Shown: one piece after another, positions 3,802 to 31,535 of the stretch
Position numbering within the stretch: the stretch's first letter is position 1
How the letters are laid out: every line of letters begins with the position of its first letter
Source of the DNA: Gammaproteobacteria bacterium
GTDB lineage: Bacteria > Pseudomonadota > Gammaproteobacteria > Thiotrichales > Thiotrichaceae
Direction of reading: 5' to 3'
Assembly (NCBI GenBank): GCA_018822845.1
Contig: JAHJJD010000033.1
Coordinates: forward strand, 1-40,632
DNA: 40,632 nucleotides
Position numbers and translations under genes: made by a program
The notes under the pieces: generated by a model
The model's input: only the letters and a program-made list of their open reading frames with translations
Databases searched by the model: none
Told to the model about the DNA's origin: nothing

Positions 3802-4488
3802 ATGCGACTGGATACTACCTATACCGTCAACACCCCTGAAGGCATCGCCTTGCAGCTTTCACCCGCAGGGCCTTTGCCCCGCCTGCTGGCATGGCTGATG
3901 GATTTGTTGCTGCGCTCCGTCATCAGTGTCACCCTGATCGTTATCCTGTCATATATGGGCAAAATGGGGCTGGGCATTGCTGCCATCCTGATTTTCCTGC
4001 TGGAGTGGTTTTACCCGGTTTATTTCGAGCTGCGCCAGCATGGCCAGACGCCAGGCAAGAAAATGCTCGATCTGTATGTGGCGCAAGCCGACGCCAGCCC
4101 GGTGACACCTTCCGCCTCCATCGTGCGTAACCTGCTGCGGGTCGTCGATTTCCTGCCCTTGCTGTATGGCTTTGGCCTTGCCAGCATGATGCTGAACAAG
4201 CGCTTCCAGCGACTGGGCGACCTGGCTGCCAATACCGTTGTTTTGCATAAAAACAATCATAAAAACCGCCATACTGCTGTTGAAACGGAGCCGCTACGCC
4301 CACCCATGTCGCTGACCCTGCCGGAACAGCAGGCCATCATGCTGTTCTCCCAGCGCAGCAACACCCTCACCAGCTCACGTCAGGATGAGCTGGCGCGCCT
4401 GACCGGCCCACTTGCCGGGGAGCAGGAAAACCCTGCCCGCTACCTGCACGCTATCGCCAACTGGTTAACCGGAGGGCGTGCAGCATGA
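3802..4488 (+). CDS. RDD family membrane protein
   Basis: A 228-residue integral membrane protein with the RDD family layout. The first segment is at about residues 29-50, a second follows directly at about 56-75 ending in EWFYPVYFELRQHGQTPGKKML, the signature stretch of the family, and a further segment lies near residues 117-132. The soluble C-terminal extension of about 75 residues is unusual in length. RDD proteins are associated with small-molecule or ion transport or with membrane organisation, but their biochemical role is mostly unproven. It is the first gene of a six-gene run, and its stop overlaps the next start by 4 bp (ATGA). An AAGGAT sits about 13 bp before the ATG, slightly far for a ribosome-binding site. 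Confidence 0.88.
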   Translation: MRLDTTYTVNTPEGIALQLSPAGPLPRLLAWLMDLLLRSVISVTLIVILSYMGKMGLGIAAILIFLLEWFYPVYFELRQHGQTPGKKMLDLYVAQADASPVTPSASIVRNLLRVVDFLPLLYGFGLASMMLNKRFQRLGDLAANTVVLHKNNHKNRHTAVETEPLRPPMSLTLPEQQAIMLFSQRSNTLTSSRQDELARLTGPLAGEQENPARYLHAIANWLTGGRAA

Positions 4489-5513
4489 AACAGGAACAGT
4501 TCATCGAACGCTACCAGTCATTGTGGAATGATTTCGAGGCATGGCTGGACTATCAGCAGACCAGTAAAGCCGAACGCCAACGTATGGCGCTGCAAGAGCC
4601 GCAAATTGATTTCCCCGCCACCTACCGCCAGCTTTGTCACCATCTGGCGCTGGCGCAGTCGCGCATGTACAGCCCGCTGCTGATCGAACAGCTCAACCAG
4701 TTGGTGATTCGCGGGCATAACCGCCTGTATGGCTCGCAGCTGCATTTCCTGCACCATATCGTGGCATTCTACCTGCGTGACCTGCCCCGGCTGGTACGGC
4801 GGGAAATCAAGCCATTGATGCTGGCCTGCCTGCTGTTTTTCGGCAGTTTCTTCGCCATTATGATCGCCATCCAGTACCAGCCGGAACTGGTGTATTCGGT
4901 CATCGACGGGGAACAGGTTGCAGGCATGGAAGCCATGTATGACCCGGCGGAACGTGAATCCCGCCTCGGGCGCGAACGTGAGGCCGACAGTGATGTGCTG
5001 ATGTTCGGTTATTACATCCGCAACAACACCGGCATTGGCTTTCAGGTATTTGCAGGCGGTTTGCTGTACGGGTTGGGCGCACTGTTTTTCCTGCTGTATA
5101 ACGGGCTGGTGATTGGCGCAGTGGCCGGGCACCTGACCCAGATTGGTTACATCGAAACCTTCTGGGGGTTTGTGGCCGGGCACAGCGCGTTTGAGCTGAC
5201 CGCCATCGTGTTGTCCGGGGCTGCCGGTTTCAAGCTGGCGCAGGCGCTGATCATGCCGGGCAGGAAATCGCGCCTGCTGGCCCTGTTCGACAACAGTCAG
5301 GATGCCATCAAGATCGTGTACGGTTCCGCCACCCTGTTCATCATGGCCGCATTTGTGGAAGCCTTCTGGTCATCACAGGTATGGATTCCGCTGATGATCA
5401 AGTACGCAGTCGGCATTACCCTGTGGGTACTGCTCATCGCCTACTTCACCCTTGCCGGGCGCAACCCGGTGGCTGAGCGGCGATCCCTGAGCGGAGTCGA
5501 AGGGAAGTCATGA
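4485..5513 (+). CDS. SpoIIM-like (stage II sporulation M family) membrane protein
   Basis: A 342-residue polytopic membrane protein of the SpoIIM/DUF95 family. The first about 105 residues are soluble. Hydrophobic segments follow near residues 107-127, 183-220, 235-260, 278-295 and 305-328. The segment around LLYGLGALFFLLYNGLVIGAV is characteristic of the family. In sporulating Firmicutes SpoIIM works in a peptidoglycan-remodelling complex at the engulfing membrane. In Gram-negative bacteria the family occurs next to RDD, DUF4129 and MoxR/DUF58 genes, as here, with unknown function. GGAGGG gives a strong ribosome-binding site. Its C-terminal codons run through a copy of a 20-bp repeat (5485-5504), so the last residues (RRSLSGVEGKS) are probably repeat-derived. 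Confidence 0.87.
   Translation: MKQEQFIERYQSLWNDFEAWLDYQQTSKAERQRMALQEPQIDFPATYRQLCHHLALAQSRMYSPLLIEQLNQLVIRGHNRLYGSQLHFLHHIVAFYLRDLPRLVRREIKPLMLACLLFFGSFFAIMIAIQYQPELVYSVIDGEQVAGMEAMYDPAERESRLGREREADSDVLMFGYYIRNNTGIGFQVFAGGLLYGLGALFFLLYNGLVIGAVAGHLTQIGYIETFWGFVAGHSAFELTAIVLSGAAGFKLAQALIMPGRKSRLLALFDNSQDAIKIVYGSATLFIMAAFVEAFWSSQVWIPLMIKYAVGITLWVLLIAYFTLAGRNPVAERRSLSGVEGKS
5485..5504 (-). repeat. 20-bp palindrome-armed repeat, copy 1
   Basis: CCCTGAGCGGAGTCGAAGGG has CCCT/AGGG arms around a 12-base core. The same element occurs in inverted orientation at 7014-7033, and with changed arms at 31073-31092. It lies in frame within the last codons of the SpoIIM-like gene. Confidence 0.75.
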
Positions 5514-7078
5514 ATCTTGATTCCATCACCGCCAACATCCGCCTGCGCTCCCCATGGGAAGCAACCGACCTCGGTTTCGCCATGGTGCAACACAACGCCC
5601 GCTGGATTTTCCCGGCATGGACATTGCTGCTGTTCAGTACCGCCCTGATTGTCTGGCTGATCCTGCCCGCCGATTATCAGGAATACACCCCATGGGTCGT
5701 GTGGTGGCTGAAACCGTGGTATGACCGGGTGTTGCTGCACATCCTCAGCCACCAGATGTTTGACCAGCGGCTGTCCACGGCTGACATTTTCAGCGCCATG
5801 CCGCGCTTGTTCCTGCGCACCGGGTTGCCGGGTGCTTTGCTGTGGCGGCGTCCGTCCTTTTCGCGTGGTTTCAACCTGCCTATCTGGCAACTGGAACAAT
5901 TGCGCGGCAAGGCGCGTAGTGAGCGGCAGAACCTGTTGCACTTGCAGGCGCATTCCCACGCCGTGTGGCTGACGATTGGCTGCATCCTGCTGGAACTGGT
6001 GGTGATTTTCAGCCTGTATGCGCTGATTGTCCTGCTCGACCCTACTGACGGCTCATGGGATTACCTTTCCAGCGCCTTCACCAACACCTTTGATGAGGAA
6101 ACCAGATATTGGGGGTCAATCATTTACATCGCCCTGTCTACCACTGCGACCTGGTTGATAGAGCCGCTGTACATTGCCGCCAGTTTCAGCCTGTACCTGA
6201 ACCGCCGTACCCAACTGGAAGCCTGGGACATCGAACTGGCTTTCCGCAATATGGGCGAACGCCTGCGGGCGCTGGCGCAAGCACCCCTTGCCATCCTGCT
6301 GGCAGTATTCCTGTTGGCGGGCAGCCATGCATTGTTCCCTTCCCCGGTTTCCGCCGCTGAAAGCAAGGGTGAGTATCTGGCGGAAGAGCGCCTGCCCCCG
6401 GAAGATTCCGCCGACCAGATCGAAGCTGTCATGCAACTGGACGAGCTTTCCAACATGCGCACCGTGAAGCGCTGGGAACGGATCAAGCCTGAAGAGGAGG
6501 AAGACGAACGGAAATCCTTCACCATTCCTGAAGCCTTGCAACTGCTGTTTGCCAATATCACCAAAATCCTGCTGTGGGTTTCGCTCATCATACTGGCGGT
6601 AATGCTGTTCGTTTACCGGGAACGGCTGCTGGCGATGCTGAAACCCTTGCAGCGCAAACCGCAACCGCAGGCAGTTCCCGACACCCTGTTCGGTATGGAC
6701 ATCCGCCCTGAATCCCTGCCTGACGACATTGCCACCGCCAGCCGCCGCTTGTGGGAGGCAGGGCAGCATCGCGAAGCCCTGAGCCTGCTGTACCGTGGCG
6801 CACTGATGCACCTGACACGGCACGATCGGGTTCCGGTGCAGGATAGCCATACGGAAGGCGACATCCTGCATCTGGCTCGGGAATACCTTGGTAGCGGCCA
6901 GCGTATTGCATGGCTGACGGCTGTTACCCTTGCCTGGCAGGAAGTGGCCTATGCCCACCGCACTCCGCCCGGTGAACGGGTTGAGCCGCTGTTTGAGGGG
7001 TGGATAGGCTTCGCCCTTCGACTCCGCTCAGGGACTGACGTTCAACCAACGACAAGCGCAGGGGATATGCAGGCATGA
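5510..7078 (+). CDS. DUF4129 domain membrane protein
   Basis: A 522-residue protein with membrane segments near residues 30-50, 150-172, 195-215, 257-277 and 343-363. The cytoplasmic C-terminal DUF4129 domain occupies about residues 410-510 and includes ATASRRLWEAGQHREALSLLYRGALMHL and a helical tail. A charged acidic stretch (EEEEDERKS) precedes the last membrane segment. DUF4129 proteins are a constant companion of MoxR/DUF58/SpoIIM clusters; no reaction is established. It overlaps both neighbours by 4 bp (ATGA), indicating translational coupling. The final about 25 residues run through repeat copy 2 (7014-7033) and probably replace the original C-terminus, since this region is not family-like. 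Confidence 0.87.
   Translation: MNLDSITANIRLRSPWEATDLGFAMVQHNARWIFPAWTLLLFSTALIVWLILPADYQEYTPWVVWWLKPWYDRVLLHILSHQMFDQRLSTADIFSAMPRLFLRTGLPGALLWRRPSFSRGFNLPIWQLEQLRGKARSERQNLLHLQAHSHAVWLTIGCILLELVVIFSLYALIVLLDPTDGSWDYLSSAFTNTFDEETRYWGSIIYIALSTTATWLIEPLYIAASFSLYLNRRTQLEAWDIELAFRNMGERLRALAQAPLAILLAVFLLAGSHALFPSPVSAAESKGEYLAEERLPPEDSADQIEAVMQLDELSNMRTVKRWERIKPEEEEDERKSFTIPEALQLLFANITKILLWVSLIILAVMLFVYRERLLAMLKPLQRKPQPQAVPDTLFGMDIRPESLPDDIATASRRLWEAGQHREALSLLYRGALMHLTRHDRVPVQDSHTEGDILHLAREYLGSGQRIAWLTAVTLAWQEVAYAHRTPPGERVEPLFEGWIGFALRLRSGTDVQPTTSAGDMQA
7014..7033 (+). repeat. 20-bp palindrome-armed repeat, copy 2
   Basis: CCCTTCGACTCCGCTCAGGG is the exact reverse complement of the copy at 5485-5504. 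It lies in the 3' end of the DUF4129 gene, so the two copies form a long inverted pair about 1.5 kb apart that brackets most of that gene. Confidence 0.75.
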
Positions 7079-25912: not shown

Positions 25913-26569
25913 CTATTCACCACCAGAAATCAACTTGCCCAGACCGTTGAACAAGGAGCTCAAAGGGTTATCGGTGGCCGGGGCATCTGCGACTTCTGAC
26001 TGATTATCGCTGGCTGGCGGTGCACTCCCGATACCATTGTCAGTTGCACCATCGCCGTATTTCTTGGCGAAGATGACCGATGGCTCGCCACTGCGATTGA
26101 AGAAATGCAGGGTATTACCGCGCTGCTCCACACTGCCTGCGCGTTGCAGGGTACGGATATAGCTACCTTCCCAGTCGCCTACATTGATGCTTGGCATTCC
26201 GGGGCCCGGACGCAGGATAGGGCAACCTGCCCTGCCTTTGGCAATATCATTGATCATGAAACCGGTATGTCCGACCCGCTGGAAGTTGGCGACATACTCA
26301 TTGCAGCCACCAAACCCTTTCAGTGAACTCTCACCTACTTCCATGCTGATTTCGAGTTCTCCGGGAACTTGAGTGCCATAGACGGAAAACAAGCGCCAGC
26401 GACTTCCCAGCAATGAAGGGCCACCACTGTTCAGGGGACAGGCTCCAGATGGCAACGCTGGAGTGGTGGACGACTCTGCTGATGCCAATCTGCTAGCCAG
26501 CAGGGCCAATGGCAGCAATAAAAAATTTCTGCGGGTTTGCATCAAAGACCGGGGTGACGGCTTACTCAT
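25913..26569 (-). CDS. Exported META-domain protein (HslJ-like)
   Basis: A 218-residue exported protein. The N-terminus has TRRNFLLLPLALLASRLASA, a twin-arginine-like signal with cleavage near residue 31. A META domain follows at about residues 52-170: LLGSRWRLFSVYG, the conserved FGGCNEYVANFQ, and a C-terminal LHFFNRSGEPSVIFAK strand. HslJ and related META proteins affect envelope stress or novobiocin resistance, with no known enzymatic reaction. The C-terminal about 40 residues are low-complexity and acidic. GGGAG supplies the ribosome-binding site for the ATG at 26569. The start at 26542 (MQTRRN) is an alternative. Confidence 0.75.
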   Translation of the reverse strand: MSKPSPRSLMQTRRNFLLLPLALLASRLASAESSTTPALPSGACPLNSGGPSLLGSRWRLFSVYGTQVPGELEISMEVGESSLKGFGGCNEYVANFQRVGHTGFMINDIAKGRAGCPILRPGPGMPSINVGDWEGSYIRTLQRAGSVEQRGNTLHFFNRSGEPSVIFAKKYGDGATDNGIGSAPPASDNQSEVADAPATDNPLSSLFNGLGKLISGGE

Positions 26570-26628
26570 AACTCAATACTCCCTTTTTCGCATAATGGTC
26601 GGCATGGACACGGTAACTAATAAAAGGA

Positions 26629-26659
26629 ACAGCCCGCTTCCTCGCATCCGGCGGACTGT
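26629..26659 (-). terminator. Probable intrinsic terminator downstream of ampD
   Basis: On the minus strand ACAGTCCGC pairs with GCGGGCTGT (one G-U wobble) across a 13-base loop, followed by TCCTTTTATT. On the plus strand the same arms have a C-A mismatch, so the fold favours the minus strand. It lies about 105 bp after the ampD stop. The rest of this 194-bp gap (26570-26763) is AT-rich and shows nothing else I can support. Confidence 0.45.
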
Positions 26660-26763
26660 ATTCTTTTAACCACAACAACGAGTATAGGGCAGGTTTGAAA
26701 TTTTGCATCTTGAATATTTTTTACACCTTTGTTGCTTTATTACAACGACACAAGGCAACCGGC

Positions 26764-27330
26764 TTAACGTGATGGAAAATTCACACTCAGTGCACAAGTC
26801 AGGCGTTGCCAGTCGAAAAACGGGCCCGGGTCGGTTTTTCGTCCGGGTGCAATGTGTTCGTGGCCAGTGACGTGTTCAAGGCTCAGGCTTGGGTAAGCCT
26901 CCACGAGTGCGGGCAACAGCTTTTCCAACTGCTGATACTGGACATCCATGAAGGGTTCGAAATCCGTGCCTTCGATTTCAATGCCGATGGAAAAGTCATT
27001 ACAACGCTCCCTGCCCCGGTAGCTGGAAACGCCCGCATGGAAAGCCCGCAGGTGGAATGGCACGTACTGGACAATTTCGCCGTCACGCCGAATGAGCAAA
27101 TGACTGGCAACCCGCAGGTGGCAGATTTCGGCAAAGAATGGATGAGCGGCAGGGTCTAACTGATTGGTGAACAGGTGATCAATCCAGTTCCCACCGAATT
27201 CGTAAGGGGGCAGGCTGATATTGTGTAATACGATCAGGTCGGGCGTACAATCTTCCGGGCGCTCATCGTGGTTGGGTGAAGGACACTGACGGGCGACATC
27301 CAGCAGGCCGGTTTCGACATTGATATTCAT
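26764..27330 (-). CDS. ampD: 1,6-anhydro-N-acetylmuramyl-L-alanine amidase AmpD
   Basis: A cytoplasmic zinc amidase that removes the stem peptide from anhydro-muropeptides during peptidoglycan recycling and so keeps the beta-lactamase regulator AmpR off where one exists. In the 188-residue protein the zinc ligands are H36 (LIVLHNIS), H157 and D167 in GHEHIAPGRKTDPGP, the family signature; E119 lies in IGIEIEG. No signal peptide is present, consistent with AmpD rather than AmiD. It overlaps the upstream thioredoxin-like gene by 4 bp. No ampC or ampR gene is in the window. Confidence 0.96.
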   Translation of the reverse strand: MNINVETGLLDVARQCPSPNHDERPEDCTPDLIVLHNISLPPYEFGGNWIDHLFTNQLDPAAHPFFAEICHLRVASHLLIRRDGEIVQYVPFHLRAFHAGVSSYRGRERCNDFSIGIEIEGTDFEPFMDVQYQQLEKLLPALVEAYPSLSLEHVTGHEHIAPGRKTDPGPFFDWQRLTCALSVNFPSR

Positions 27331-27680
27331 GGTTCGTCCTCGGCGGGCAGGCTCAGGGCCGCCTGGATGGCATGGTTGATACGGGCTGGCAGTGGCTCAC
27401 ATTTCAGCTCGCGGTGATAATAACCGTTCATGTACAGAAAAATGGCTGGCAGATGGAAAATTTCCAGCGCATTGACCAACCCACCGTTGTGGACGGCATC
27501 TATCTCAAATACTGGCAGCGGCGTGTGTTCATGCATATATTTTTCCAGCGCATGCTTGAGGCTGCGGCACGCGCCACAGTTGGGCGCAGTGAAAAATACC
27601 AGCGCTGCCCCCGGCGTTTCCGCCAGCACATGATGGAAATTGAGGTCGTCAAGTCTTGCGATTTTCGTCATGGCAGGCAT
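27327..27680 (-). CDS. Thioredoxin-like protein with CGAC active site
   Basis: A 117-residue thioredoxin-fold protein. ALVFFTAPNCGACRSLKHAL contains the redox pair C35 and C38 as CGAC, in place of the CGPC of classical thioredoxin. FEIDAVHNGGLVNALEIFHLPAIFLYMNG supplies the cis-proline region (LPAIFLY). It probably acts as a cytoplasmic thiol-disulfide reductase or redox partner. I chose the ATG at 27680 (MPAMTKIARLDD); the next ATG is at 27671. A longer upstream frame is open but not family-like and would overlap the divergent ATPase gene. It overlaps ampD by 4 bp, suggesting co-transcription. Confidence 0.82.
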   Translation of the reverse strand: MPAMTKIARLDDLNFHHVLAETPGAALVFFTAPNCGACRSLKHALEKYMHEHTPLPVFEIDAVHNGGLVNALEIFHLPAIFLYMNGYYHRELKCEPLPARINHAIQAALSLPAEDEP

Positions 27681-27745: not shown

Positions 27746-27754
27746 TGCTATAGT
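27746..27754 (+). promoter_or_regulatory. Extended -10 element before the AAA ATPase gene
   Basis: TGCTATAGT has the extended -10 pattern (TG-n-TATAGT, five of six to TATAAT). No convincing -35 is seen. The predicted start is near 27761, with AAGGA 9 bp before the ATG at 27784. Confidence 0.45.
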
Positions 27755-27783: not shown

Positions 27784-28827
27784 ATGCTCGACAGCCTGCA
27801 CATCAAGAACTTCCGCTGCTTTGAAGACCTTACCATCCCCTCTCTAGGACAGGTAAATTTGATCGTGGGAAAGAACAGCGTTGGCAAAAGCACACTGCTA
27901 GAAGCAATCGCTATTTTCTCATCAGCAGCAGACCGTCAAACCATTAACTTTTTTCGTGAATTTCGAGATTCTTATTCTTCTACATCTTCTACAGATGATG
28001 ATCAATTAATCGAATTACTCCCACACAAAAATCAAGAGTTAATGCTGGAAATAGGGGATATTCGGAAAATTCAATATGTTACAATAATGCCTAAAAGTAT
28101 AGCAATAGAGAAATTTCCCGACTTCCCTGTGGAGGAATCTTCTTCATATTCTAGAAGGCGCGCTAGAAAAGATAATAAATTCGTTATAATTAGCTTAAAA
28201 AACAACCTAATTAATTTAACATCGATACCACACTATTATTCTGGAACTCATCTTGAAAACACGAGCGAGTTAGAAAGGATATGGGCAGCAGCATTTAAAA
28301 ACAGTAAAAAGAAACTAGTCATTAATGCACTCAAAATAATAAACAAATCCATTAATGATCTTGCTTTTATACCAGAAGAAATTTATGAAAATGATTTTCC
28401 TAGAGATCAAAAGCTAATCAGAATACCAATGGTAAAACTTGACGATCAAGATCAAGCCGTACCTCTCCGATCACTAGGAGAAGGTACATTAAGGTTATTA
28501 CAAATTATTTTAGCTGCACTACAGGCGGAAAATGGCTTTCTGCTGATCGACGAGTTCGAGAACGGCTTACACTACTCGATTCAGGGAGAAGTATGGGAAA
28601 AACTTTTTAAGCTAGCGAAAGAACTGGATATTCAGGTGTTTGCAACAACTCACAGCGAAGATACTGTAAAAGCATTTTGTAAGGTTTCGCTACATTCACC
28701 TGAAGAAGGACATCTAATTTCTCTAGGAAGAAGTGCTTATGGTGAAGATAAAGGTAAAATCATCGCTATTGTGCATGACGAAAATGACCTCCAATACATC
28801 CTCGATACCGGCATGGAGGTTCGCTGA
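27784..28827 (+). CDS. AAA family ATPase (ABC-type, OLD/AAA_21-like), candidate defence protein
   Basis: A 347-residue ATPase of the SMC/ABC-type AAA group. Walker A is GKNSVGKST (residues 29-37), the ABC signature is SLGEGTLRLL (about 229), Walker B is FLLIDEFENGLH (about 251-262) with the catalytic glutamate, and the switch histidine is in TTHS (about 288-291). The N-terminus HIKNFRCFEDLTI is typical. There is no fused TOPRIM domain, unlike single-chain OLD nucleases. The middle of the gene is markedly AT-rich compared with every neighbour and uses rare-looking AGA, AGG and ATA codons, consistent with recent acquisition. Its stop and the next start share TGATG, so the two are translationally coupled. 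The pair resembles ATPase/TOPRIM defence modules. Confidence 0.85.
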   Translation: MLDSLHIKNFRCFEDLTIPSLGQVNLIVGKNSVGKSTLLEAIAIFSSAADRQTINFFREFRDSYSSTSSTDDDQLIELLPHKNQELMLEIGDIRKIQYVTIMPKSIAIEKFPDFPVEESSSYSRRRARKDNKFVIISLKNNLINLTSIPHYYSGTHLENTSELERIWAAAFKNSKKKLVINALKIINKSINDLAFIPEEIYENDFPRDQKLIRIPMVKLDDQDQAVPLRSLGEGTLRLLQIILAALQAENGFLLIDEFENGLHYSIQGEVWEKLFKLAKELDIQVFATTHSEDTVKAFCKVSLHSPEEGHLISLGRSAYGEDKGKIIAIVHDENDLQYILDTGMEVR

Positions 28828-29516
28828 TGACCCGCAGTGTCTTGCTCGTTGAAGGAACAACAGATAAATACTTTTTTGAATTATTACTAGAAAAAGCTGG
28901 CTTAACTCACGTAGAAGTCTTTCCCCCAAAAGAATCAGGTACTCGCGGTAGAGGCATCAATGCTCTCGTAAAAGAAGGCATTCCCAAACAACTAGAGGAA
29001 ATCAAGCGCGGCTCAGTCATGAAACTGGGTATTGTCGTCGATGCGGACAGTGAAGATGATGATGCTGGCTTTGCCAATCGTCACCAGGCCATCAGTGCGC
29101 TATTGGAAAGCGACTTTACCTTAGTGGTAGCACAACAAGAGGTTAAAGGAAGCATCTTTCAGCGGGATGATGCCCCTGAAATCCGTATTGGCTTATGGAT
29201 AATGCCTGACTGCCAAGAACAAGGAATGTTGGAAGATTGCTTATTACCCTGTATTGCTGACCCAGAACGTACTGAACTATTGGCACTTACAGATGCCAGC
29301 ATTCACGAGGTCACGCAGCGTAAAATATTTGAAAACATCCGTTTCAACGAAAAACACCTATCCAAAGTCCGGTTTACCACATGGCTGACATGGCAGCAAA
29401 AACCTAGAAGCTGCCGCCAACTTAGCCCTGCCTGCGCCCTCAAAGAAGGTTGGCTCAACCCTGACCATCCCAACATCACAGCCATCACCCACTGGCTCCA
29501 GAAAGTATTCCAATAA
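28827..29516 (+). CDS. DUF3226 / TOPRIM-like protein, partner of the AAA ATPase
   Basis: A 229-residue protein with TOPRIM-like signature residues: E9 in LLVEGTTDKYFF (motif 1) and D72 and D74 in IVVDADSEDDD (DxD motif 2). This matches the DUF3226 family, which belongs to the TOPRIM-like fold. TOPRIM domains use these acids to bind magnesium for nucleic-acid cleavage or nucleotide transfer. A catalytic role is inferred, not seen. It starts inside the ATPase stop (TGATG) and probably forms a complex or regulated pair with it. Base composition rises toward that of the host over its 3' third. rep starts 7 bp after it. Confidence 0.75.
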   Translation: MTRSVLLVEGTTDKYFFELLLEKAGLTHVEVFPPKESGTRGRGINALVKEGIPKQLEEIKRGSVMKLGIVVDADSEDDDAGFANRHQAISALLESDFTLVVAQQEVKGSIFQRDDAPEIRIGLWIMPDCQEQGMLEDCLLPCIADPERTELLALTDASIHEVTQRKIFENIRFNEKHLSKVRFTTWLTWQQKPRSCRQLSPACALKEGWLNPDHPNITAITHWLQKVFQ

Positions 29517-29522
29517 AACCAT

Positions 29523-31535
29523 ATGCAAGGACTCAACCCCGAACAACAAGAGGCGGTCACCCACCTCGGCACCCCACTATTGGTGCTGGCAGGTGCTGGC
29601 AGCGGCAAAACCCGCGTCATCACCCAGAAAATCGCCTGGATGATCCGTAAGGGCGTGCATTCCGCCGACCAGATTGCCGCGATTACCTTCACCAACAAGG
29701 CCGCGCGTGAAATGCGCGAACGCGCCAGCAAACTCCTGAGCAAGGAGGAATCGAAAGGGCTAACCGTTTCCACCTTCCACACGCTGGGTTTGAACATCAT
29801 CAAGCGCGAAGCCAAACGTTTGGGCTACAAGAACAATTTCAGTATCCTCGACGCACAGGACAGCGGTGCCATCCTCAAGGAACTCGCCCACAAGCAGGAA
29901 ATCGAGGAAGCCGACAGCCTGCGCTGGATCATTTCGCGCTGGAAAAACGACTTCATTTCGGTCGAGCAAGCTGCCCTGCTGGCCAATACCACCGACGAAA
30001 AACTTGCCGCGATCCTCTACGAGAAATACCAGCGGCAAATCAAGGCATACAACGCTGTCGATTTCGACGACCTGATCGTGCTGCCGGTGCAACTGTTCGA
30101 GCAACACCCTGATGCGCTGCAATTTTGGCAAAACAAGCTGCGTTACTTGCTGGTCGACGAATATCAGGACACCAACGCTTGCCAGTACCGCCTGATCCGC
30201 CTGCTATCCGGGCTGCGCGGCGCACTCACCGTGGTAGGCGACGATGACCAGTCGATCTACGCCTGGCGTGGCGCACGCCCGGAAAACATCATCCAGCTCC
30301 AGAAAGACTACCCCATGCTCAAGGTGGTGATGCTGGAACAGAATTACCGCTCCACCAGTCGCATCCTCAACAGCGCCAACAAGCTGATCGGCAACAATCC
30401 GCACCTGTTCAGCAAAAACCTGTGGAGCACCCTCGGCGAAGGCGACCCGATCCGCATCATGCCCTGCCGCACTCCCGAGCACGAAGCCGAAAAAGTCATC
30501 GGTGAAATCCTCAAACAGCGCTTCCGCGACCGCGCTGCCTTCAAGGATTTCGCTATCCTCTACCGGGGCAACCACCAAAGCCGATTGTTTGAAAAAGCCC
30601 TGCGTGAAAACAACGTCCCCTACAAAATCAGTGGCGGCACTTCATTTTTTGAGCGCTCCGAAGTCAAGGACATCCTTGCCTACCTGCGCCTGATCGCCAA
30701 CCCGGATGATGATGCCGCCTTCCTGCGCATCATCAACACCCCCAAGCGTGAAATCGGCACTTCCACACTGGAAAAACTCGGCGAATACGCTCACGAACGC
30801 CACACCAGCCTGTTCACTGCCGCGCAGGAACTCGGTTTCGCCCAGCGCGTTTCCGCCAAAGCCCAGCAACGGGTGGAAACCTTCAGCTTCTGGCTGCACG
30901 AAATGGTACGCGCCGCCGACAACACCGACCCGGTGAAAATTGCCCGGCAGGTCATCACCGACATTGGCTACGAAGACTGGACAAAAAACACCTGCAACAC
31001 CCCCAAACAGGCCGAAGCGCGCATGAAAAACGTGTGGGAAATTGTCGAGTGGATTCGCAAACTACATGACGACACTTCGACTCCGCTCAGTGCCCGCAAG
31101 GAGACGCTTGCCGACATCATCGCCCACATGAGCCTGGTCGACATGCTGGAACGCAACAGCGAAGAAAAAGAACAGGATGCCGTCACCCTGATGACCCTGC
31201 ATGCGGCCAAAGGGCTGGAATTCCCCAGTGTATTTCTGGTAGGAGCGGAAGAAGAACTCCTGCCCCACGCCAACAGTATCGACGAACACGGCCTTCAGGA
31301 AGAACGGCGGCTAGCCTACGTCGGCATTACCCGCGCCAAGAAAAACCTCACCATTAGCTACGCCAAGGTGCGTTCGCGCTACGGCGAGTCTTCCACCGTC
31401 GAACCCAGCCGCTTCCTCGACGAATTGCCGCCAGAACATCTGGAGTGGGAAAACAAGAAAGTGGTGTCGGATGAGGAACGACAGGAAACCGCCCGTGCCT
31501 ACATTTCCAACCTCAAAGACCTGCTGGTTGATTGA
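29523..31535 (+). CDS. rep: ATP-dependent DNA helicase Rep
   Basis: A 670-residue UvrD/Rep superfamily 1A helicase moving 3'-5' on single-stranded DNA; it helps replication forks pass protein blocks. The length is close to the 673 residues of E. coli Rep and the sequence follows it throughout. Walker A is GAGSGKT (24-30), motif Ia ITFTNKAAREM, motif II VDEYQDTN (about 210), motif III VGDDDQSIYAWRGA, motif IV EQNYRS, motif V TLHAAKGLEFPSVFLVG and motif VI EERRLAYVGITRAK. A 20-bp repeat (31073-31092) is carried in frame in a variable linker (DDTSTPLSARKETL). The start is 7 bp after the TOPRIM-like gene. Confidence 0.97.
   Translation: MQGLNPEQQEAVTHLGTPLLVLAGAGSGKTRVITQKIAWMIRKGVHSADQIAAITFTNKAAREMRERASKLLSKEESKGLTVSTFHTLGLNIIKREAKRLGYKNNFSILDAQDSGAILKELAHKQEIEEADSLRWIISRWKNDFISVEQAALLANTTDEKLAAILYEKYQRQIKAYNAVDFDDLIVLPVQLFEQHPDALQFWQNKLRYLLVDEYQDTNACQYRLIRLLSGLRGALTVVGDDDQSIYAWRGARPENIIQLQKDYPMLKVVMLEQNYRSTSRILNSANKLIGNNPHLFSKNLWSTLGEGDPIRIMPCRTPEHEAEKVIGEILKQRFRDRAAFKDFAILYRGNHQSRLFEKALRENNVPYKISGGTSFFERSEVKDILAYLRLIANPDDDAAFLRIINTPKREIGTSTLEKLGEYAHERHTSLFTAAQELGFAQRVSAKAQQRVETFSFWLHEMVRAADNTDPVKIARQVITDIGYEDWTKNTCNTPKQAEARMKNVWEIVEWIRKLHDDTSTPLSARKETLADIIAHMSLVDMLERNSEEKEQDAVTLMTLHAAKGLEFPSVFLVGAEEELLPHANSIDEHGLQEERRLAYVGITRAKKNLTISYAKVRSRYGESSTVEPSRFLDELPPEHLEWENKKVVSDEERQETARAYISNLKDLLVD
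31073..31092 (+). repeat. 20-bp palindrome-armed repeat, copy 3 with compensated arms
   Basis: CACTTCGACTCCGCTCAGTG has the same 12-base core as the copies at 5485-5504 and 7014-7033, but its arms are CACT/AGTG instead of CCCT/AGGG. Both arms changed together, preserving pairing. It lies in frame within a poorly conserved linker of rep. Confidence 0.65.

Follow-up and report, generated by a model that had tools for sequence, protein, structure and literature searches.

In the PARIS system, the ATPase AriA is reported to sense a phage protein and to release AriB, a TOPRIM tRNase (PMC12409363). A neighboring UvrD/PcrA/Rep-like helicase is what defines Class 2 of the OLD proteins (PMC10568477), and BREX loci contain TOPRIM-linked OLD ATPases that have been described as backup effectors (PMC12839542). 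In Gabija, the ATPase and TOPRIM parts of GajA form one chain. The MADS system is a multi-gene cluster with a methylase and further mad genes. In HsdS of type I restriction systems, conserved blocks flank swappable recognition segments. The gene pair analyzed here, from a genome of the genus Thiothrix, is compared below with these systems. At a probability of about 0.6, it is a two-protein OLD-ABC/TOPRIM abortive-infection system that occupies a fixed chromosomal slot, and in which a sensing segment and a nuclease are replaced separately by recombination.

The pair lies in a window of 40,632 nucleotides, the whole stretch of DNA that was analyzed (Table 1). The two ORFs share a TGATG overlap (28825-28829), as described in the initial annotation. 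The ATPase gene begins 112 bp from the start of the thioredoxin-like gene, and the DUF3226 gene ends 6 bp before the gene which we take, from an earlier reading, to be rep; another neighbor is presumably glyA. The identity of the ampD-like neighbor was checked in Pfam. The C-terminus of the ATPase is E-V-R (28816-28827), with R347 invariant in 48 sequences, and the codons of these residues overlap GGAGG, a stretch resembling a ribosome-binding site for DUF3226. The pair has the extended -10 promoter of its own that had been claimed, TGCTATAGT, kept across 12 slot alleles. The description as AT-rich holds, with a refinement. GC content in 500-base windows is 33-45% over the ATPase gene and the start of the DUF3226 gene, compared to mostly 53-60% in the flanks, which dip to 48% near 26250-26999. 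In all 12 slot alleles the ATPase gene has 35-41% GC, versus 48-57% for rep. However, GC is not evenly low, with 48% at the ATPase start, 34% in the ATPase middle and 53% at the end of DUF3226.

Table 1. Features of the ATPase/DUF3226 locus (positions in the window; residues in the respective protein)
Feature	Position	Strand	Remarks
Thioredoxin-like gene, left border of the slot	27330-27671	-	Pfam Thioredoxin; same border in 11/15 same-genus genomes
Extended -10 promoter TGCTATAGT	27746-27754	+	TGCTATA(G/A)T in 12 slot alleles; remains in emptied G004 slot
OLD/RecF-type ABC ATPase, 347 aa, presumed sensor	27784-28827	+	AAA_15/AAA_21, PDC-M38A-like
ATPase motifs			Walker A, residues 29-36; signature GEG, 232-234; Walker B DE, 256-257; switch His, 290
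Conserved N block with Walker A, ATPase residues 1-44, candidate recombination arm	27784-27915	+	
Hypervariable ATPase middle, residues 45-233 (core about 51-150), candidate trigger-sensing segment	27916-28482	+	
Walker B/switch-His block, ATPase residues 234-300, candidate recombination arm	28483-28683	+	
ATPase tail, residues 301-347 and stop	28684-28827	+	Travels with DUF3226 (r=0.83, p=2e-4)
DUF3226 TOPRIM-fold protein (predicted), 229 aa, presumed nuclease effector	28827-29516	+	PDC-M38B-like
E9, presumed TOPRIM catalytic Glu after strand 1	28851-28853	+	Invariant, 54/54
D72-A73-D74, putative TOPRIM DxD after strand 64-71	29040-29048	+	Aligns with DUF4435 DxD
rep helicase gene, right border of the slot, probably no component	29523-31535	+	88-92% identity, 11 relatives

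The ATPase matches AAA_15 (1.5e-30) and AAA_21 (1.4e-25) in Pfam. It contains the complete set of ABC ATPase motifs that had been claimed and that characterizes the OLD-ABC/TOPRIM superfamily, and G34, K35, G232, G234, D256, E257 and H290 are invariant across 48 sequences (alignment A3). The AF2 model has a mean pLDDT of 86.8, with lower confidence for residues 61-150 (pLDDT 45-86). The partner matches DUF3226 (8.8e-39) and, below threshold, an OLD-like TOPRIM profile (0.011). Structure prediction, run as a check, yielded a model with the proposed TOPRIM-like fold, in which E9 sits just after predicted strand 3-7; a TOPRIM fold with E and DxD, as predicted here, is the second mark of the superfamily. 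The structures closest to the model are PH0156 and the C-termini of OLD nucleases, and the best Foldseek match is 6NK8, the TOPRIM of an OLD protein. By profile, AriB is the closest solved chain (E 0.0017), and the profile of its family, DUF4435, aligns E, D and DxD with DUF3226. Across 54 DUF3226 sequences (alignment A2), E9, D13, D72 and A73 are invariant, whereas position 74 is Asp in 44 and Asn in 10. The E...DxD pattern noted initially is therefore strict for E9 and D72 but not for the second Asp, and the motif is DA(D/N).

Like AriA/AriB, the locus encodes an OLD-type ATPase and a predicted TOPRIM protein in separate, adjacent genes. In contrast to AriB, which belongs to DUF4435 (PF14491), the partner gave only DUF3226 and the weak OLD-like TOPRIM match in Pfam, and a search of the window's genome for DUF4435 found none. 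The pair is thus related to PARIS yet distinct from it, as had been proposed. Among characterized nucleases, the OLD C-termini, as in GajA and Class 2 OLD, are nearest to the DUF3226 model, but the single chain of GajA corresponds here to two ORFs. Downstream, rep occupies the position of a GajB-like helicase, but it does so in Thiothrix only and has the appearance of a housekeeping gene. The ATPase matches AbiLi along its length (3.7e-53); the seven PADLOC matches of the partner (E up to 1) include no AbiLii model. The ATPase also matches mad3 (9.4e-18), and the partner weakly matches mad4 (0.0019), although the ATPase scores 58 bits against an NCBIfam MAD3 cut-off of 420. Inspection of the neighbors for MADS-type genes revealed the thioredoxin-like gene and an amidase by Pfam; other neighbors were judged by eye.

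The best PADLOC matches are PDC-M38A for the ATPase (3.8e-102, in two stretches) and PDC-M38B for the partner (2.1e-48, full length). An ATPase gene matching PDC-M38A thus overlaps a gene matching PDC-M38B, the arrangement that defines PDC-M38. Weaker matches of the ATPase include AbiLi, AriA, GajA and mad3, and its matches comprise 136 families in all. The combination of ATPase and DUF3226, initially regarded as a different variant, is not new, since PADLOC-DB already lists it as the candidate PDC-M38. PDC candidates derive from guilt-by-embedding, and most of the common ones await validation (PMC12988326); the passages concerned do not mention M38. A literature search for DUF3226 and PDC-M38 found no work on either, including any phage, trigger or nuclease experiment.

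Of 15 same-genus genomes, with one genome sampled per species, 11 carry the pair in the slot that it occupies in the window, flanked by the thioredoxin-like gene and rep. The other four genomes have rep without the pair. The emptied slot of G004 still contains the -10 element, together with a scar in the form of a 3' fragment of DUF3226; in G013 the slot is empty, with no remains of promoter or DUF3226, and in G008 rep is found in a different setting. Slot occupancy and these remains suggest that the ancestor of most of these Thiothrix species probably had the pair. Because 11 of the 15 share the slot and G004 retains promoter and scar, the pair looks like an old resident that has been lost in places. 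The slot of G005 (L050:5252-6170) is filled by an unrelated AT-rich ORF of roughly 220-250 codons on the minus strand, and the slot may thus be a hotspot, if a small one, for insertion.

Identity to the window is 88-92% for rep and 92-96% for glyA, compared to 44-52% for the ATPase and 34-39% for DUF3226 (gap columns excluded). A neighboring gene, which we take to be META-like (25913-26569), evolves faster than the genes around it, with 59-67% identity in the 11 pair-carrying relatives, versus the 92-96% of glyA. In five pairs of close species compared over 18 kb, the other matched ORFs are 79-100% identical, the META-like gene being lowest; of 19 ORFs, six were unmatched in L022/L027 and three in L016/L020. 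In the same species pairs, 8 of 10 ATPase or DUF3226 comparisons give 43-67% identity, one of them over 193 residues only. The other two, the ATPase comparison in L016/L020 (90%) and the DUF3226 comparison in L023/L025 (88%), give high identity.

A scan of genome contigs returned 55 loci, five of them in Thiothrix. The ATPase gene lies directly 5' on the same strand in 46 of the 50 non-Thiothrix loci; the other four (L074, L078, L096, L105) have broken frames or a match that lies elsewhere. The loci extend from Proteobacteria to Methanosarcinales and Caldilineaceae, and 9 of 369 genomes of the class contain DUF3226, the window's genome included. In L078 (Thiomargarita), two DUF3226 genes (3834-4520 and 6001-6648) and a further ATPase gene apparently lie on one contig, and Leucothrix arctica (G021, C14) has a second, more distant ATPase/DUF3226-like pair at L029 besides L021. 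A relative was found on each of seven plasmid records (five Acinetobacter, one Citrobacter, one Plesiomonas), and in all five of those opened the pair is intact, with the ATPase gene directly upstream. The Citrobacter plasmid is small and mobilizable, and the Plesiomonas copy is near phage tail genes. Searching phage records with the window's DUF3226 gave no match, and none was confirmed when viral contigs were scanned for a pattern. Among 119 neighboring proteins from 34 loci (at most two per side, each under 900 aa), five match PglZ and four match BrxL, a raw count without a control set. Seven distinct pairs are located 5' of pglZ at distances of up to about 1.6 kb, with L170 counted on a PglZ fragment only, near a contig end. 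The proposed association with defense is borne out by the PDC-M38A/B matches, the BREX neighbors and the plasmid copies, from which we infer defense itself.

A rival reading is that of an addiction module or of self/non-self competition, in which DUF3226 would be the toxin and the ATPase its restraint, and the variation would reflect strain incompatibility. The overlapping two-gene layout, the high polymorphism and the toxin-antitoxin genes that adjoin the plasmid cargo in two records are consistent with such a module. It is nevertheless unlikely, given that the emptied, scarred slot of G004 suggests that the pair can be lost and that embedding in BREX fits defense better. Moreover, deletion of either gene is reported to be non-toxic, as shown for PARIS rather than for DUF3226 (PMC9122126).

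It is more doubtful still that the pair is a housekeeping module that serves repair or replication together with Rep, in the manner of the cell-cycle OLD protein Cran1, or that it forms a Gabija-like trio with the resident Rep as GajB. DUF3226 does run into rep, 6NK8 is listed under Class 2 OLD (PMC10568477), and Cran1 is a precedent for an OLD protein that reportedly seems to have no antiviral role (PMC12796447). However, rep adjoins the pair only in the five Thiothrix of 60 loci, apart from a weak helicase-like match 2 kb off in L090, and 4 of 15 same-genus genomes keep rep without the pair. The divergence of the pair is also the opposite of that of a housekeeping gene.

Conserved and variable segments alternate within the ATPase. 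Among the 12 alleles, the N block has a mean amino acid identity of 91%, and codons 1-32 a mean nucleotide identity of 0.90 versus 0.76 for the thioredoxin-like gene. The Walker B block has a mean identity of 78%, with a mean nucleotide identity of 0.84 over 40 codons from DEFENG. Identity in the middle averages 21% (minimum 11%, maximum 99%) and is 0.01-0.44 in ten-residue blocks from residue 41 to 230; the middle is hardly alignable for most allele pairs, with L016/L020 (99%), L018/L024 (68%) and L016/L023 (53%) as exceptions. Lying between Walker A and the signature, it is a natural candidate for trigger contact, judging by its variability alone.

Identity matrices of the 12 alleles (p-values uncorrected, 45 comparisons) show two modules that assort independently: module 1, consisting of the ATPase start, middle and Walker B block, and module 2, consisting of the ATPase tail and DUF3226. 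The tail correlates with DUF3226 (r=0.83, p=2e-4), the N block with the middle (0.57) and the middle with the Walker B block (0.48), whereas the middle is uncorrelated with DUF3226 (r=0.13, p=0.19) and with the tail (r=0.05, p=0.31). Since tail and DUF3226 travel together, the tail may contact the nuclease. Some vertical signal is present in module 2 (DUF3226 with rep, r=0.40, p=0.025, and with the thioredoxin-like gene, r=0.44, p=0.008; tail with the latter, 0.44, p=0.005), and it is weak in the middle (with rep, r=0.28, p=0.04). The residual correlation of DUF3226 with both flanks counts against fully free reassortment.

Two close-species pairs each have one module in common and differ in the other. 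In L016/L020, the flank proteins are 96-100% identical, the ATPase gene is 97-100% identical in nucleotides as far as Walker B, and DUF3226 is 45% identical in amino acids. In a scan of 100-column nucleotide windows, in which edge windows are lower, the two are 96-100% alike over the thioredoxin-like gene and the ATPase gene up to Walker B. Similarity falls to 36-69% in the ATPase tail and DUF3226 and returns to 96-100% at rep. In L023/L025, the flank proteins are 96-100% identical, the ATPase middle 16% and DUF3226 88%. Four groups are fully supported in the flank trees: L016+L020, L022+L027, L018+L023+L025, and the last of these together with L019. When tested against the DUF3226 data, all four are rejected (AU p 1.1e-4, 0.018, 8e-5 and 4e-7), the rejection of L022/L027 (p 0.018) being weakest and involving long branches. 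Conversely, the flanks reject all three DUF3226 groups tested; the grouping L023+L025 is common to both trees. Comparison of dS is mixed and supports transfer in one of four pairs: L016/L022, where 0.74 for DUF3226 versus 2.2 for rep fits a recent transfer. In L019/L020 the values are about equal (0.52 and 0.55), and in L018/L024 (1.75 vs 1.10) and L023/L025 (0.33 vs 0.17) DUF3226 is higher. DUF3226 omega is 0.06-0.21 in six pairs, which argues that the proteins are constrained by purifying selection in close pairs. The tree conflicts and the abrupt identity steps indicate exchange via the conserved blocks, which would resemble the arrangement of HsdS, except that the variable segment here lies in an ABC ATPase and its recognition role is putative.

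Very fast vertical evolution in a fixed slot, with no recombination, would account for the common slot and promoter, for module 2 being partly correlated with rep and the thioredoxin-like gene, and for the three of four pairs in which the dS of DUF3226 is at most slightly lower than that of rep. It is improbable in view of the tree conflicts, the steps within the ATPase, the uncorrelated modules and the low omega in close pairs. Least credible is the initial reading of a mobile defense cassette recently acquired at a new site, for although GC is low relative to the flanks and mobile copies exist elsewhere, the shared slot in 11 of 15 relatives, the low GC of all 12 alleles and the promoter and 3' scar of G004 contradict it. 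That reading was to fail if most close relatives kept both genes in the same place with host-like composition; the place is the same in most relatives, but the composition is host-like in none of the 12 alleles.

A second slot was found in relatives of Methylobacter. A family search centered on a Methylobacter genome turned up a DUF3226 relative in 27 of 201 genomes, and the pair lies between hisG and hisD in 6 of the 20 places fetched (28 in all). Identity between L158 and L160 is 94% for murA, 97% for hisG, 100% for the N block, 41% for the middle, 85% for the Walker B block, 94% for the tail, 82% for DUF3226 and 89% for hisD. Even the middle (82%) and DUF3226 (90%) remain similar in the closest pair, L158/L159. 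The middle varies most in this slot too, although the effect is weaker than in Thiothrix. In L158, L159, L160 and L177, 0.7-1.1 kb of other cargo separates hisG from the ATPase gene. In three genomes this cargo presumably includes an HDOD-like ORF, and in L158 small DUF4160-like ORFs. The same strategy of diversification may be at work in two or more lineages and slots: the slot flanked by the thioredoxin-like gene and rep in Thiothrix, and the one flanked by hisG and hisD in relatives of Methylobacter.

For an abortive-infection system of this kind, homology and layout make a PARIS-like course the likeliest. The ATPase would act as sensor and keep the DUF3226 TOPRIM nuclease, the effector, inactive. 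A phage product, recognized mainly via the hypervariable ATPase middle, would free or activate the nuclease. The nuclease may then cut host nucleic acid, either tRNA, the target of AriB, or DNA, as OLD and Gabija do, and thereby stop the infected cell. The genes would remain in one chromosomal slot and obtain new specificities by recombination between species: pairing of the conserved ATPase blocks and of the rep and thioredoxin-like flanks would allow the sensing segment (module 1) and the tail with the nuclease (module 2) to be replaced separately. Chances are about even that the locus is, more specifically, a chromosomal immune locus in a housekeeping slot whose diversity arises through combinatorial gene conversion across species, with ATP-site arms, trigger-recognition cassettes and nuclease cassettes that reassort. 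The pair itself is of a known, computational candidate kind, but modules that reassort independently of each other while the locus stays in a fixed slot are undescribed, for PDC-M38 or otherwise, as far as the literature searched shows.

The reassorting modules make the roles of sensor and effector testable. The question that they address is how ATPase-TOPRIM systems recognize different phages. The 12 alleles in one slot, with naturally swapped putative sensing and effector modules, are ready-made chimeras that name the segment to test. Should the trigger range track the ATPase middle and the target track the DUF3226 module, a whole class of systems would have a logic that can be tested directly. 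Finally, the locus suggests that immunity genes that change fast can reside in fixed housekeeping slots as well as in islands and prophages, and such genes would escape searches for recent insertions.
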